In this document: piece by piece, positions 310-24,946 of the stretch
Numbering within the stretch: position 1 is the stretch's first letter
Layout of the letters: the number at the start of each line of letters is the position of its first letter
From: Komagataeibacter melomenusus
GTDB taxonomy: Bacteria; Pseudomonadota; Alphaproteobacteria; Acetobacterales; Acetobacteraceae
Direction of reading: 5' to 3'
NCBI RefSeq assembly: GCF_013155395.1
Contig: NZ_JABJWC010000039.1
Span: forward strand, 1-35,321
DNA length: 35,321 nucleotides
Made by a program: the position numbers and the translations under genes
The notes under the pieces: generated by a model
Database searches by the model: none
What the model was told of the DNA's origin: nothing
What the model saw: the letters and a program-made list of their open reading frames with translations, nothing else

Positions 310-879
310 TCAGTCGTTCAGACTGAACGTGATCGTATAGAGATGGTGGAACTCCTTGACGGGCACACCATTTTTGACTGCCGGCGCATAACGCGAACGG
401 CGAACCGCCTTCAGGGCTGCGTCGGCAAATGCCTGGCCACCTTTAACGCTGACCACCTGGCAGTTGCTGGTCACGCCGGTCGGCTCCACGTCACAGGCCA
501 CGGACACGACGCCCTCACGGCCTTCTTCCGACATGTCCTCCGGATATTCCGGCACGACATGGTTCAGCGGCGACGTGCCTGCCGAGTGATCGGGCACGGG
601 CGGCGCGTTGGAGACGGGCGCATCAGCCGGTGGCGTCGCCCTTGCGGGCGGCATGGCCTTGGGCGGCTTCTCGTGGGTTACCTTCATCGGCGGCGGCGGC
701 GGCGGTGGCTCCTTGATCATATGCACCTCGACCGGGGGCTTGGGCGGCTCCTGGGGCGCATCTGGCGGCGAGCTGAGCCCGAACAGAAGCGCGAGCACCA
801 GCAGCCCCTCGAATGCCAGGACGAGGGCAAAAACGATTACCTTTTGTAGTGTGTTATCACTCTGTTCCGCATACGTCAT
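310..879 (-). CDS. tonB: TonB family energy transducer
   Basis: The 189-residue protein has the TonB layout: a short cytoplasmic N-terminus, one membrane segment (about residues 14-36), a Pro-rich periplasmic spacer with a run of prolines and Lys/Glu-Pro repeats (about 40-100), and a C-terminal TonB domain (about 108-189) with YPEDMSEEGREG and a terminal YTITFSLND. It carries energy from ExbBD to TonB-dependent outer-membrane receptors for iron chelates, cobalamin and similar substrates. I chose the ATG at 879 because GAGG lies 7 bases upstream. The ATG at 885 is only one base from that GAGG. exbB follows on the same strand after a hairpin, so the two are probably cotranscribed. No convincing Fur box was found upstream. 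Confidence 0.9.
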   Translation of the reverse strand: MTYAEQSDNTLQKVIVFALVLAFEGLLVLALLFGLSSPPDAPQEPPKPPVEVHMIKEPPPPPPPMKVTHEKPPKAMPPARATPPADAPVSNAPPVPDHSAGTSPLNHVVPEYPEDMSEEGREGVVSVACDVEPTGVTSNCQVVSVKGGQAFADAALKAVRRSRYAPAVKNGVPVKEFHHLYTITFSLND

Positions 880-1505
880 ACCCATACCTCACTCAGAACG
901 GCATAGTTTTTAGGAAGGATTATTACAGAATTTGTTCTGGATGTTCTGATTTCACCAATTTGACTACGGGAGTATGACCAGATTTCTACGAAACGACTGA
1001 TGCGATCCGCCTTGTTCTCCCCGGCTTGACCCTGAAGCACGATAATCCTCTTTCCCGGCGGAACGGAAAAGCATGACAGTCGTAGCCTCCGGCAGTCCAT
1101 ACGCCAATGCACGGACACTGGATGCATCCTGCCCTGACAAGCCAAGCCATTCATTCATCACGTTTTATCCATAAACATTATTAACATCTCGAAATCAACC
1201 CTGATCTTATATGAAATATCTTTATGTGAACCTGCCGCCGGTCAGGCCACCTCTCCATGGCAGAAGACCTTTCATGAAGCTGTGTGCCAGCCACATGGCA
1301 GCCAAACAAAAAACCGTTCCTTCCAGCTTGATCAAAAAAAAAATCCAGTCAAGCAAAGTGTTAAAAAAATGAGAGAAAAATCCATTCACACTCATGCGGG
1401 CCTACCACATCACAGCATATTACATATTCGATATGAATGGGCCGTATCCGCAGTACAGCGCGCAACAGTCTGCCTTCACCACCTTGGTTTCTTTCCAAAA
1501 ACGGT
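880..1505. other. AT-richer non-coding gap between tonB and the scpA-like gene
   Basis: This 626-base stretch has lower GC than its surroundings and no convincing gene. Two short overlapping minus-strand frames (964-1161 and 876-1154) are open, but they have no recognisable domain or good codon pattern. A weak inverted repeat (CAGAA-TTTG-TTCTG at 926-939), followed by another GTTCTG, lies about 50 bases upstream of tonB and could be an operator. The part around 1290-1400 contains A-rich runs. The promoter of tonB must lie here, but I cannot place it with confidence. Confidence 0.4.
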
Positions 1506-2324
1506 TCAGGCCGGGCCATCATGCGCCACGTTGCCAAAACGGGGCAGCGCATCGGGACCGGGCTGGTAGGCCAGCGCCTCGCCCTGCTTGACCATTTCGA
1601 GGCAGGCGGTGAACGTGCTGCTCCACGCTGAACGCCGCAGCCCCGTGCGCCGCGCGCCCTCTGCCCCATGCCGGACGGAATCGGGCAGCATGCGGTCCAG
1701 CGGCACGGGCCTGCGCGCGCGGGCCAGGCAGGCGCGCACCCGTACCCGCGCCTCCTCGACTGAAAACAGGTCAAGCTGCACCGGGGCATAAAAGGGTGTT
1801 TGCTCGGGCATGGCGCCCCAGTTGCCATCAAATACCGCAAGGCAACCCCACAGGAATTCGATCCGGTCTACTTCCCATGCAGCCGATTCGTCCTGCAGGG
1901 CGGCAGGCTGTGCGCCGCCAAAGGCATGGACATCGCGCCCGAGTTGCGCACGCGCCGCCAGCCACCCCGCCAGGTGCCCCGCCTGCTCGGCCGCGATCAG
2001 GCGCGCGCGCAGGTCCTGCGCCTCCTGCGCCGCCTGCTGCTGGCGCGGATCATCAGCGGGCAGCAGAAGCCGCGAGCGCAGCAGCAGCAGGCCCGACGCC
2101 ATGACCACCCACTGCGCCTTCATGCCCAGCGGCAGGGCGGCATGCGCCCGCGCGGCCTCGGCCAGCTGGTCGATCAAGCCCACGATATCAAGCCGGGTCA
2201 GATCGATTTCACGCGCATGGACCAGTTGCACCAGATGCGTCAGGTCACCCTGATACGCCTCCAGCATGATGACCGGCTCAGCGCCGGGCCGGGCGGGGTC
2301 GAACAGGTCGGTCTGGCCGGTCAT
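1506..2324 (-). CDS. ScpA-like segregation and condensation protein
   Basis: The 272-residue product matches the ScpA kleisin N-terminal pattern: YQGDLTHLVQLVHAREIDLTRLDI (about residues 24-47) corresponds to the ScpA 'F.GPLDLLL.LI....IDI.DI' signature. MASGLLLLRSRLLLP (75-89) corresponds to the conserved helix before the linker. ScpA bridges SMC heads with ScpB in chromosome condensation. The remaining protein is Ala/Arg-rich and less diagnostic. It is the last gene of a three-gene minus-strand unit and overlaps the upstream gene by four bases (ATGA), implying translational coupling. No scpB is adjacent. Coupling to a tyrosine recombinase is unlike the usual chromosomal scpAB setting, so this may be a paralogue for an accessory element. 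Confidence 0.72.
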   Translation of the reverse strand: MTGQTDLFDPARPGAEPVIMLEAYQGDLTHLVQLVHAREIDLTRLDIVGLIDQLAEAARAHAALPLGMKAQWVVMASGLLLLRSRLLLPADDPRQQQAAQEAQDLRARLIAAEQAGHLAGWLAARAQLGRDVHAFGGAQPAALQDESAAWEVDRIEFLWGCLAVFDGNWGAMPEQTPFYAPVQLDLFSVEEARVRVRACLARARRPVPLDRMLPDSVRHGAEGARRTGLRRSAWSSTFTACLEMVKQGEALAYQPGPDALPRFGNVAHDGPA

Positions 2325-3025
2325 GTCAGGGGCCGCGCGGTCAGGCGGAAGGTCAGCGCGGGGTAATGCTCCTCCATCCGGCGCACCACGGGCGCAGGCA
2401 TGCCGCCACGGGTAAAGAAGCCATACACCACGGCCCGATGCCCGCGCGGCAGCCGCCTGCCCGCCTTGCGCCCCGGCACCAGTGCCACCTGGGCTGGCGC
2501 TTCCACCACGCCCCAGTTGGCCAGAAGCCAGGCGCGGGCATCGGGGTGGGTCGCGCCAAGGTGCACGATGCGATCGGGCACGGGCACCAGGCGGTTGAAA
2601 TCCAGCGGGCAGGCGCCGTCAGGCCGCAGGGCGAGGCGGGCATGGCGCGCCTCCGCCGCCGCGCGGAACTGGCGGGCCAGGATGCGGCACCCTTCCACCG
2701 ACAGCCCCCCCCGGCCCGATCCGGGCGTATTGGCCCCGATGGCCAACGCGAACATGTCTTCTTCCACCCGCTCCGCATCGAACGGCCACGGAATCAGTCC
2801 CGGCCCGGCGGCTTCGGTGGCAAAGGCCGCCATGCCCGCGTCAGGCCCATGCACCAAAAGGTGCCATGCCTGCCATGGCAGCGGACCTGCGGGCGCGGGC
2901 CAGGCGGATAGTGGCCGCCGCCCCCGGCGCGCGGGCGGGCGACGGGCGGGAGCGGCGGGGCCTTCCTCCTCACGCGATGTCGCGGGCGGCAGGTCGGCCC
3001 AGGGCAGGCGCAGGGTTTCAGTCAT
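2321..3025 (-). CDS. Hypothetical protein with YubB/Api92-like C-terminal domain
   Basis: The 234-residue protein has an Arg/Pro/Ala-rich N-terminal 50 residues, a middle region with NTPGSGRGG, and a C-terminal part with PLDFNRLVPVPDRI, then ANWGV, then VVYGFFTRGGMPAPVVRRM and YPALTFRL. That order (DFN-x-LVP-x-P, NWG, F-x-T, P-P-V, FP-x-L-x-F) resembles the ferredoxin-like C-terminal domain of phage and plasmid proteins of the YubB/Api92 type. I infer this from memory of the motif order, so it is tentative. The start at 3025 lies inside the end of the recombinase gene (8-base overlap) and the stop overlaps the scpA-like start, so all three genes are translationally linked. Longer upstream starts would run through the recombinase and are unlikely. 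Function unknown. Confidence 0.65.
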   Translation of the reverse strand: MTETLRLPWADLPPATSREEEGPAAPARRPPARRGRRPLSAWPAPAGPLPWQAWHLLVHGPDAGMAAFATEAAGPGLIPWPFDAERVEEDMFALAIGANTPGSGRGGLSVEGCRILARQFRAAAEARHARLALRPDGACPLDFNRLVPVPDRIVHLGATHPDARAWLLANWGVVEAPAQVALVPGRKAGRRLPRGHRAVVYGFFTRGGMPAPVVRRMEEHYPALTFRLTARPLT

Positions 3026-3884
3026 GGGCAAGCAGGTCCGCATAGGGGCGCAGGGCGCGCGGATCACGGTAGCGGGTGCGCTGGCCCAAGGCCGTGGCGT
3101 CCATGCCATGGCGCAGGGCCTCGACAATGAAGCCCGCCCGCAGCGCATGGGCGCTGAGCCGGGCCACGGTGGCGGGCGGCACCTCGGCCATTAGCGCCCG
3201 GCGTTGCAGGATGCGGGTCACGGCATAAGGGGTCAGTGCCCGCCCGCCCACGCGCTCGCCCTTGGAGATGGCGCGGAACAGCGGGCCGGTCTGCCGGTGC
3301 GCCACCTGCTGCCAGGCGGTAAAGGCCAGTGCCGGGCACAACATGCGCTCCTGCGCCACAGGCAGCGCGATGGTGGGGGCCTCGTGGCTATCGCGCACCG
3401 TCAGCATCACGGCCTGCGGGGTAAGGCGCACGTCTTCCACCTGCAGCCCCACCAGTTCCGAACGGCGCAGCGCCCCTGCGAAGCCAAACAGCAGCAGGCA
3501 GCGGTCCCGCAGGCCGCGCACGCCATCGGTGCAGCGTTCGGACATGGCGCGCAGCATGGCGGGCGTGACCACGGCGGGGGGCGGTGCGGGGCGGCGGGCC
3601 TGCTCCAGCATCTCGGCCAGTGCCGCGCGGATGAGCGGATGCGCGACATCCCATGCCAGGCCGTTGAAACGATGCATCTTGCCAATGGCGGCAAGGCGGC
3701 GGCGAATGGTGGCGGGGGCAAACGTGCCAAGGCTGCGCAGGTAAGCCGCCACCCCCTCAGGCGCTGCGGGAATGGGGGCAATGGCGTGTTCGGCACACCA
3801 CTGCGTAAAATGCACCCAGTCCGCCCGATAGGCGCGCAGGGTGGCCGTGGCCTCGCGCGTGGGGGTATCCTGTGGCGTGGTCAT
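3018..3884 (-). CDS. Tyrosine-type recombinase/integrase, atypical
   Basis: The 288-residue protein has an N-terminal SAM-like core-binding domain (about 8-95; YRADWVHFTQWC, ATIRRRLAAIGKMHR) and a C-terminal catalytic domain. Visible catalytic residues are R140 in GALRRSEL, H246 and R249 in SAHALRAGF, and Y281 in ALRPYADLL. The His/Trp that normally lies nine residues before the nucleophile is Y272, and no clear beta-hairpin lysine is seen. It may therefore be a slow or specialised enzyme. I chose the ATG at 3884, which has a GGCGGGA sequence just upstream and leaves a 22-base gap after the adenine deaminase stop. A start at 3932 would overlap that gene. It heads the recombinase/YubB-like/scpA-like unit. 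No att site or phage structural gene is nearby. Confidence 0.82.
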   Translation of the reverse strand: MTTPQDTPTREATATLRAYRADWVHFTQWCAEHAIAPIPAAPEGVAAYLRSLGTFAPATIRRRLAAIGKMHRFNGLAWDVAHPLIRAALAEMLEQARRPAPPPAVVTPAMLRAMSERCTDGVRGLRDRCLLLFGFAGALRRSELVGLQVEDVRLTPQAVMLTVRDSHEAPTIALPVAQERMLCPALAFTAWQQVAHRQTGPLFRAISKGERVGGRALTPYAVTRILQRRALMAEVPPATVARLSAHALRAGFIVEALRHGMDATALGQRTRYRDPRALRPYADLLAHD

Positions 3885-3906: not shown

Positions 3907-5607
3907 TCAGACCAGTTCCATCCGGTTGACATCCACCATGCCGAAATCCGTGATCTTGAGGTGCGGGATCACCGGCAGCGGCAGGAAGGCAAGCTGGAGG
4001 AACGGCTCATCAAGCTGGCAGCCCAGCGCACGGGCGGCGGCGCGCAGCACTTCAAGCTGGTCGCGCACGGTCTCGAACGGCGCATCGCTCATCAGCCCCG
4101 CCACCGGCAGCGGCATGTCGGCCACCACCTTGCCATCGCGCACGACCACAAAGCCGCCGCCGGTCTTTTCCAGATGGTTGACCGCCAGCGCCATGTCGGC
4201 ATCGTTCATGCCGACCACACAGATATTGTGACTGTCATGCCCCACCGACGAGGCCAGCGCCCCGCCAGACAGCCCGAAGCCCTTAACAAAACCCCGGCCG
4301 ATATTGTCATTATGCCCATGCCGCGCCACCACGCAGATGCGCGCGATATCCTGCGCCGGGTCTGGCTGCACGATGCCATCCACGACCGGCAGGTCGGCAT
4401 GCAGGAAGGGGGTGATGATCTGGCCGGGCAGCAGGCCGATGACGGGGCGCTGCGTGCCGCTGCCCTTTATTTCCATGTCTGTAGCACTGACCGGGGCGGG
4501 CAGGCTGATGCTCTCCAGCCCCACGGGGGCAATGACCTCACGGGCGGCGAACAGGGCATCATCCACCAGGCGGCCCGCGCTGATCACATCCGACACGCGG
4601 CATTCGCGCAAATCATCCAGCAGCACGATATCGGCACGCCGACCCGGCGCGATCATGCCGCGATCGCGCAGGCCAAAGGCGTTGGCCGCACTGAGCGAGG
4701 CGCTGCGATAGGCGGCCAGCGGCTCGACGCCCAGCGAGATGGCCAGGCGGATCAGGTAATCCAGATGGCCTTCATGCGCGATTTCAAGCGGATTGCGGTC
4801 GTCGGTGCAGAAGGCGAAGAAGGGGGATGTGACCGGGTTGAGCAGCGGCACCAGTGCACGCAGGTCCTTGCACACCGAACCTTCGCGGATCAGCACCATC
4901 ATGCCCTTGCGCACTTTCTCCAGCGCTTCCTCCGCCGTGGTGGCCTCATGGTCGGTGGTGATGCCGGCACTCAGGTAGCCATTGAGCCTGCGCCCGCGCA
5001 GCAGCGGGGCGTGGCCATCGATATGGCCACCGGCAAAGGCTTCCAGCTTTTCCATGCAGACCGGGTCGCCATTCAGCACGCCGGGGATGTTCATGAACTC
5101 GGCCAGGCCGATCACCTTGGGGTGGTCGCGATAGGCCAGCAGGTCGGCGGCACCCAGCGTGGCGCCCGAGGTTTCAAGGTGGGTGGAGGGCACGCAGCTT
5201 GAAAGGTTGACCCGCAGGTCCATGACCGTGCGCAGGGCAGCTTCGGTAAAGTAGTCCAGCGCCGGGCGGCCGAGCACGTTGGCCATCTCGTGCGGGTCGC
5301 ATATGGCGGTGGTCACGCCATGGGGCAGCACGCAGCGATCGAACTCGAAGGGCGTGATGAGCGAGGATTCGACATGCAGGTGCGTATCGATGAAACCGGG
5401 CACGGCAATGCGGCCATGGCCCTCGATCACGTTCGTGCCCTCGTAGTGGTCGAGCGTGCCGACAATGGTGTCGCCACAGATGGCGATATCGGTTGGCAGC
5501 AGTTCCCCCGTGACCAGATCGAACAGGCGCACATTCCGGATGACGGTATCAGCCACCACGCGCCCGCTACCCTGTGCAATCCGGCTGGAAATCGTGCTTG
5601 CTGCCAT
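3907..5607 (-). CDS. ade: Adenine deaminase
   Basis: The 566-residue protein belongs to the Ade/AdeC amidohydrolase family, which converts adenine to hypoxanthine and ammonia in purine salvage. Visible features are the N-terminal metal-binding HxH (H76, H78 in [12 protein letters not shown]), the GLAEFMN segment, [12 protein letters not shown], and FCTDDRNP with the catalytic Asp region. The C-terminal family domain contains SVGHDSHN and GGGFVV. Length fits the family (about 570-600). The ATG at 5607 is preferred because AGGA lies a few bases upstream. The ATG at 5625 gives a six-residue extension but lacks a ribosome binding site. The gene is transcribed away from thiC, and the recombinase unit follows it closely on the same strand. 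Confidence 0.93.
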
Positions 5608-5724
5608 TCTGTCCTGCTTCCCCATAAAAATGATGTCTGCCCGCACTCTATCACAACGGCGCGGCTGGCAAATCGGCACACGAATTCTTTTTCAGGCCCG
5701 GCGCGCCCGGCCCTGCCTGCATGA

Positions 5725-24865: not shown

Positions 24866-24946
24866 GAATAAAATTCCGTGGGCCGCTTTTAGATAAAGCG
24901 GTCTTTCTCAAAGCTTTTTGAAAAAAGCTTTACCAAAAACTTTTAT
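24866..24946. repeat. Repeat element copy E (divergent double-hairpin form) after cobM
   Basis: The layout is the same as copies B and D but more diverged. It has a left end AATAAAATTCCGTGGGCCGC, hairpin 1 weakened to CCGCTTTTAGATAAAGCGG (about 24883-24901), hairpin 2 AAAGCTTTTTGAAAAAAGCTTT (about 24910-24931), and a right end ACCAAAAACTTTTATT. It faces copy F across the small AT-rich gene, with its ACCAAAAACTT end pointing inward. Confidence 0.85.

Follow-up and report, generated by a model that had tools for sequence, protein, structure and literature searches.

A 35,321-nucleotide stretch of DNA from Komagataeibacter melomenusus (contig NZ_JABJWC010000039.1 of assembly GCF_013155395.1, hereafter the window) carries three overlapping genes that code for a Xer-like tyrosine recombinase, a protein with a predicted YubB/Api92 fold and a paralogue of the kleisin ScpA. 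Comparison of related sequences shows a recurrent three-gene unit that usually has a dif-like palindrome upstream, occurs on many plasmids and codes for three proteins that diverge in step. Our preferred reading, held with moderate confidence, is that this trio is a replicon-maintenance module of the Acetobacteraceae, in which the recombinase would mark a site, the dedicated kleisin would bring the host SMC to it, and dimers would be resolved where catalysis survives. The genes and their overlaps are as follows.

3018..3884, minus strand: Xer-like tyrosine recombinase gene, 288 amino acids (ATG at 3884, TGA at 3018; PF00589 and alignment of catalytic residues)
2321..3025, minus strand: YubB/Api92-fold protein gene, the middle gene, 234 amino acids (ATG at 3025, TGA at 2321; predicted fold)
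1506..2324, minus strand: ScpA-type kleisin paralogue gene, 272 amino acids (ATG at 2324, TGA at 1506; PF02616 and structure-profile matches)
3018..3025, minus strand: 8-base overlap of recombinase stop and middle-gene start (sequence)
2321..2324, minus strand: 4-base overlap (ATGA) of middle-gene stop and kleisin start (sequence)

A preliminary description of this DNA had read these genes as one unit with 8- and 4-base overlaps that joins a site-specific recombinase to a kleisin. The open reading frames, strands and overlaps are borne out by the sequence, and the identities of the two proteins by Pfam. The recombinase, whose gene has an alternative in-frame ATG at 3932, matches Phage_integrase (PF00589, E 6e-8); its best NCBIfam models are Xer ones, all far under their cut-offs, its best PHROG match is an integrase family, and in annotated plasmid regions the first gene of the trio is named integrase or recombinase/integrase. 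The kleisin matches SMC_ScpA (PF02616, E 8.7e-6, 26.3 bits versus a curated cut-off of 24.6), and its best NCBIfam models are ScpA ones, below their equivalog cut-offs. A profile of the kleisin family matched the N-terminal helical domain of the ScpA structures 4i98, 3w6j and 3zgx (E 3.4e-22 to 3.5e-17) and, weakly, their C-terminal end as well, where the kleisin has a winged helix of the type bound to the SMC head. We infer that the kleisin would load SMC.

The trio itself has no ScpB, as the preliminary description had remarked, and the genome (3.64 Mb in 146 contigs) has a separate scpA-scpB pair on a different contig (PF02616 E 5.5e-15, PF04079 E 2.2e-48), which rules out that the trio kleisin is its only ScpA. 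In a midpoint-rooted kleisin tree, which has L040 under two labels, 30 alphaproteobacterial rows make up the canonical ScpA group (support 100/97); the trio kleisins fall outside it, with one trio row, L118, adjoining that group. Given the scpA-scpB pair elsewhere, the separate place in the tree and the NCBIfam scores below cut-off, the trio kleisin does not qualify as an orthologue of the canonical ScpA beside ScpB. The same genome contains one long SMC frame of 1517 amino acids, the other 24 PF02463 matches lying in shorter frames, and two strong Xer genes. These score 323 bits, above the model cut-off, and 219 bits, which falls short of it, and the next-best match has 69.

The middle protein has no Pfam, NCBIfam or PHROG match, and none of 63 members of its family matched the DUF1281 Pfam model at E 1. 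In its predicted structure the N-terminus has low confidence, and an alpha/beta ferredoxin-like core starts near residue 47. In a structure search this fold found YubB ferredoxin-like proteins, and in a search of PDB folds api92/DUF1281 (2ijr) was the first row, so the earlier naming of the protein as YubB/Api92-like holds at the level of the fold, though not as a DUF1281 sequence match. A phage origin of the middle gene was rejected, since the window protein was unmatched in 50,697 phage records and, used as a single query, in the viral contigs searched. A search of viral contigs with the family alignment gave one distant recombinase and middle-gene locus, L238, without kleisin match.

The trio is nearly confined to Acetobacteraceae. 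The middle gene was found in 24 of 120 sampled genomes of this family, some with two to five diverged copies, and in a class-wide search in 2 of 385 genomes, one of them the genome of the window (few candidates were scored per genome, and only four other same-family genomes were among the matches listed). The other class-wide genome has a middle gene with one internal TAG, an adjoining recombinase and no kleisin match. Using tblastn, the middle protein was detected in 31 plasmid records, all from Acetobacteraceae (25 Roseomonas, 2 Acetobacter, 2 Acidisoma, 1 Rhodovastum and 1 Lichenicola), versus only 4 with the window kleisin as query. Some loci are labelled Rhodocyclaceae, Nevskia or Caulobacteraceae, labels that come from possibly misbinned metagenome bins. 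As a set the trio is therefore widespread in genomes and plasmids of the family, and this spread, including 19 Komagataeibacter genomes, excludes that it is peculiar to one strain.

The middle gene found 111 relatives, of which the best 80 named loci were studied, with start codons assigned by script. They contain 81 middle-gene places, 72 with enough flanking DNA, and at 62 of these 72 the recombinase lies upstream and the kleisin downstream on the same strand (8 have the recombinase only, 2 neither), so the gene grouping is not due to chance. The pairwise distances of the three proteins correlated over 55 length-filtered trios (r 0.82-0.94, p=0.001 each), a set that includes close relatives, which raises the correlation; co-divergence was tightest between the YubB-like protein and the kleisin. 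In 16 annotated plasmid regions (15 records) the kleisin adjoins the middle gene in 13, while rep or ParA genes are present in 6 and toxin-antitoxin genes in 10.

Several loci show other arrangements. Recombinase and YubB-like pairs without kleisin match occur at L059, L060, L075, L090, L106, L109, L111 and L238. Metagenome bins are the source of several and a viral contig of one, and these pairs are possibly an older two-gene form. The Roseomonas mucosa plasmid NZ_CP025059.1 has a first trio with a short kleisin followed by an IS6 transposase gene, and a second YubB-like and ScpA pair with no recombinase and an adjoining VapC (L034, 8066-10229). The Roseomonas gilardii plasmid NZ_CP015585.1 has, close to its complete trio, a further gene of the ScpA family behind TniB/TniQ/Mu-type transposition genes (L148, 12742-13608). 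On two Roseomonas plasmids H-NS-type and HU genes follow directly after the trio (L147, 8587-9744; L150, 8500-9659), so that a nucleoid-protein cluster adjoins the kleisin.

Alignment of the DNA upstream of related loci revealed a palindrome, approximately TTACACGCGATAA-N6/7-TTATCGCGTGTAA, with conserved arms and a variable spacer of 6-7 bp. Its core, GATAA-N6/7-TTATC with extended arms, is of the ATAA-N6-TTAT type like dif, the XerC/XerD site. Candidates were scored on the GATAA/TTATC core and arm symmetry, with a threshold of 11.5, up to 2.1 kb upstream of the recombinase. Among places whose recombinase is C-terminally complete, 42 of 57 reached the threshold, as did 8 of 14 where it is truncated or fused and 1 of 3 that have no recombinase. 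None of the 9 loci that belong to the Komagataeibacter/Novacetimonas chromosomal type did, and of the control windows taken from the same loci 2 of 207 did. For this count near-identical places were merged into one, 5 whose upstream DNA was too short were excluded, the upstream DNA at some others was shorter than 2.1 kb, and L040 was assigned to the truncated class by hand. With 0.8-kb windows the counts were 29/53 (complete), 4/12 (truncated or fused), 0/2 (no recombinase, for which a 2-kb window was used), 0/9 (chromosomal type) and 0/713 (controls). Since the motif was derived from the same loci, the control windows, and not the counts alone, carry the argument. The palindrome is also kept at several of the kleisin-less places that have a recombinase (L060, L075, L090, L106, L109 and L111).

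In seven plasmid records the exact core occurs once in 5, twice in 1 and not in 1, and 6 of the 7 lack the reversed control pattern; the core lies at most 2 kb from the trio in four records and 11-17 kb off in two. In whole genomes this short core is unspecific, with 2 exact matches versus 1 for the reversed control in the genome of the window and 6-7 versus 3-5 in two Acetobacter genomes. An exact GATAA-N6-TTATC common to three Komagataeibacter genomes, located on the scpAB contig in the genome of the window, was rejected as a site, as it lies in a stretch conserved well past the core and has no extended palindrome. A dif consensus of gamma-proteobacterial type gave 0 matches with up to 3 mismatches in 8 genomes, and canonical dif was therefore not placed.

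The recombinases of the trio differ in their active sites. The complete Xer catalytic set is R-K-H-R-H/W-Y, and at the six catalytic positions of the family most trio recombinases read R-K-H-R-H/Q-Y (RKHRHY or RKHRQY). The window recombinase reads R-H-H-R-Y-Y instead, so it does not have the complete Xer set; the catalytic Lys is lost, the surrounding stretch is shortened, and compared with the usual set the enzyme is therefore probably inactive or weakened. Seven Komagataeibacter relatives likewise have no Lys and a Tyr at the fifth position, two Novacetimonas loci are without the Lys only, and at L040, L080, L091, L105, L108, L112, L114 and L120 most or all six residues are gone. On the kleisin tree the truncated recombinase types require 4 changes. 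As read from these alignments, catalysis is lost in several lineages while the middle gene and kleisin, and often the palindrome too, persist.

Where there was room downstream, intact active sites go with 39 full, 3 partial and 9 absent kleisins, and altered active sites with 12 full, 3 partial and 2 absent ones, the latter class including split or broken recombinase frames (L065, L067, L100, L116), so that not every row is a clean loss. The chromosomal Komagataeibacter/Novacetimonas class has 9 full kleisins. Places with no recombinase on the alignment have 7 full and 2 absent kleisins, a class that includes L064, L068, L095 and L101, whose recombinase the gene-choice script missed, and L050, L083 and L087 at contig ends. 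As kleisin-less places occur with both intact and altered active sites, absence of the kleisin is tied to neither; the telling observation is that the kleisin and middle gene remain at loci that have lost the active site. A divergent, C-terminally complete recombinase lies just upstream of the truncated type in L040, L074, L080, L085, L091 and L114. At several loci of this kind, to which the copy L127 described below also belongs, a slightly asymmetric palindrome lies near or between the two recombinases, and a XerC/XerD-like division of labour between them is possible.

Contig 61 of the same genome carries a second, fused copy. Its frame of 445 amino acids combines a recombinase remnant with the YubB-like protein, and a kleisin follows. 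The fused frame and this kleisin had no Pfam match at E 0.01 and were recognised by profiles built in this analysis. Upstream lie the palindrome CTACTTCCGACAA-gataac-TTATCGGAAGTAG, with arms perfect except for one core base, and a divergent recombinase of 482 amino acids with a full PF00589 match (L127, 1465-2913). Copies of this second type are present in 17 of 19 Komagataeibacter genomes, with a single frame of at least 469 amino acids at 19 of 22 places; the fusion was read in the sequence of the own genome and L119, and elsewhere deduced from frame length. The 28-bp arm pattern gave 15 matches, for 17 second-type copies, in 14 of 16 genomes searched, each on a contig with such a copy; it was absent from the two genomes that lack one. 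The palindrome is thus kept next to a recombinase part that lacks a catalytic domain, and this fits a binding rather than a cutting role. The divergent upstream recombinase may use the palindrome as well.

The window copy represents a chromosomal form, flanked by these genes:

3907..5679, minus strand: adenine deaminase gene, upstream neighbour (PF13382, PF01979)
310..885, minus strand: TonB C-terminal-domain protein gene, downstream neighbour (PF03544)

All 19 Komagataeibacter genomes have this form, with identities of 73-93% in the 18 others; the middle gene is 93% identical to that of K. nataicola and 90-92% to that of K. xylinus. The ratio of nonsynonymous to synonymous substitution rates (dN/dS) of the three genes was 0.09-0.18 in comparison with four close relatives (K. 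nataicola, K. xylinus) and 0.15-0.37 with five loci at greater distance, indicating purifying selection on the recombinase as on the other two. Both gene overlaps are kept in seven Komagataeibacter relatives, and the start of the TonB-domain gene after the kleisin is conserved in 9 Komagataeibacter/Novacetimonas relatives. The upstream DNA aligns among the loci of these two genera, indicating a common chromosomal context. The trio lies 133-155 kb from a parS pair in the five contiguous assemblies searched and, by GC skew in one assembly sampled, on the origin side. In the kleisin tree the window copy groups with Acetobacter, Asaia and one metagenome-bin trio (100/97), and because the Acetobacter trio is plasmid-borne, the chromosomal copy was likely captured from a plasmid.

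Neither upstream of the window trio nor in the gap between the kleisin and tonB genes was a palindrome found at threshold, the best scores (9.0 upstream, 8.5 in the gap) being background; a scan of the whole window gave one place far from the trio, at 24892, with a score of 11.0. With the catalytic Lys lost and no dif-like site beside it, the window recombinase is probably no longer a resolvase, the role suggested in the preliminary description, and probably serves not as a cutter but as a subunit that binds DNA or has a structural role. Between the genes for the kleisin and the TonB-domain protein lie two non-coding blocks (1321-1358 and 1162-1200) that are strongly conserved in 9 Komagataeibacter/Novacetimonas relatives. 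One has inverted GCTTGA/TCAAGC arms around a T-run, and the other reads CATAA-N6-TTAAC, a loosely dif-like geometry that scores at background (8.5). They might serve tonB regulation or be a drifted recombinase site.

The components of the trio are known, and its novelty, which is high, lies at the level of the system. It resembles Xer/dif dimer resolution in the best-scoring NCBIfam models of its recombinase and in the ATAA-N6-TTAT type of its palindrome, but it differs in its two further operon members, the YubB-like protein and the kleisin, in the presence of two strong Xer genes elsewhere in the genome and in the loss of catalytic residues in several lineages. Its kleisin has N- and C-terminal domains like those of ScpA in SMC-ScpAB, yet the trio comes without SMC or ScpB, and the kleisin stands outside the canonical ScpA group and below the NCBIfam equivalog cut-offs. 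The predicted fold of the middle protein is shared with the YubB/Api92 (DUF1281, PF18406) proteins of phages and plasmids, whereas its 63 members lack a Pfam DUF1281 match and an operon with recombinase and kleisin was not found described for such proteins. In Bacillus subtilis, XerD is reported to unload SMC at its terminus site (Karaboja et al. 2021, as cited in PMC12322038 and PMC8357415). There too a Xer recombinase acts on SMC at its site, but it is a housekeeping enzyme, whereas the trio has a dedicated kleisin in the operon of the recombinase. Hi-C data of large extrachromosomal replicons have been interpreted as SMC release at dif (PMC13342612). As in ParABS with SMC loading at parS, a site-binding protein would bring SMC to one locus; in the trio, however, this would be a recombinase, no ParA ATPase or ParB domain was found in the three proteins by Pfam and NCBIfam searches, and the locus is 133-155 kb from parS in 5 chromosomes. 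Streptococci have a gene cluster of xerD-like, scpA and scpB genes, for which the literature search gave no confirmation. In contrast to SMC-type defence (Wadjet), the three trio proteins matched 0 PADLOC families, which rules out a known defence system. No literature description of such a trio was found in a search whose coverage was without most subscription papers.

In the mechanism that we propose, the recombinase would bind the palindrome and, with an intact active site, resolve plasmid dimers. The YubB-like protein would be an adaptor between the site-bound recombinase and the kleisin, a role suggested by its tight co-divergence with the kleisin and its fusion to a recombinase remnant. 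The kleisin would replace ScpA in the host SMC complex, and the plasmid would thereby have SMC delivered to its own site, or released there, which would help sister copies apart. Recombination and kleisin function look separable, because some loci have only recombinase and YubB-like protein and others have kleisin, YubB-like protein and a recombinase without its catalytic part. The spread of the trio, a kleisin that is not the sole ScpA, plasmid residence, the dif-like site and the partition or toxin-antitoxin neighbours on some plasmids favour the DNA-maintenance module of the preliminary description, apart from the resolvase role in the window copy. More tentatively, the recombinase may have turned into a centromere-like DNA-binding subunit from which the YubB-fold adaptor hands the kleisin to the host SMC, and the Komagataeibacter chromosome may have captured the module as core genes, giving one SMC two alternative kleisins; this would be an undescribed class of replicon-maintenance system.

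The trio could instead be an ordinary Xer-type cassette for plasmid dimer resolution, in which the recombinase acts at the palindrome, the other two proteins do no more than set the directionality or topology of recombination, and no SMC is recruited. The intact R-K-H-R-H/Q-Y set at most loci, the conserved arms around 6-7 bp variable spacers, the single exact core in 5 of 7 plasmid records and the retention of the site at the six kleisin-less places listed above all fit such a cassette. We nevertheless consider it unlikely, as several lineages lost the active site and retained the middle gene and kleisin, and the chromosomal form is under purifying selection without the catalytic Lys. Quite improbable, in our view, is that the kleisin is a decoy that poisons the host SMC or an SMC-like anti-plasmid defence, the trio being a counter-defence joined to a resolvase. 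Plasmid residence, several diverged copies per genome and the existence of published anti-plasmid SMC systems would suit a decoy, but a chromosomal copy in 19 of 19 Komagataeibacter genomes would be odd for one, the kleisin is of the ScpA type with both end domains, and PADLOC gave no match.

For the window copy alone, the absence of the catalytic Lys and of a detectable palindrome in the chromosomal clade, together with the kleisin-tree link to trios of Acetobacter (plasmid-borne), Asaia and a metagenome bin, could mean that a captured plasmid module survives here as a decaying relic that no longer has a function. The low dN/dS values in both sets of relatives, the presence in all 19 genomes, at 73-93% identity in the 18 others, and the two overlaps retained in seven relatives argue against decay, and we regard this as slightly more improbable still than a decoy. 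Least probable is a selfish integrating element, an integrase with passengers, as the annotated gene names and the PHROG integrase match might suggest; the best NCBIfam models are Xer ones, the palindrome lies upstream of the operon rather than flanking it, in the 5 contiguous assemblies searched for parS the chromosomal copies lie at a distance of 133-155 kb from it, and catalytic residues are lost in several lineages.

If the trio is a replicon-maintenance module as proposed, plasmids of this family would carry their own SMC-targeting kleisin, a new kind of maintenance beside partition, dimer resolution and addiction. One bacterial SMC would then work with more than one kleisin, and the link between Xer and SMC would be directly testable in a cellulose producer that is non-pathogenic and genetically workable. 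The trio hints at how plasmids could borrow the chromosome-organising machine of their host.

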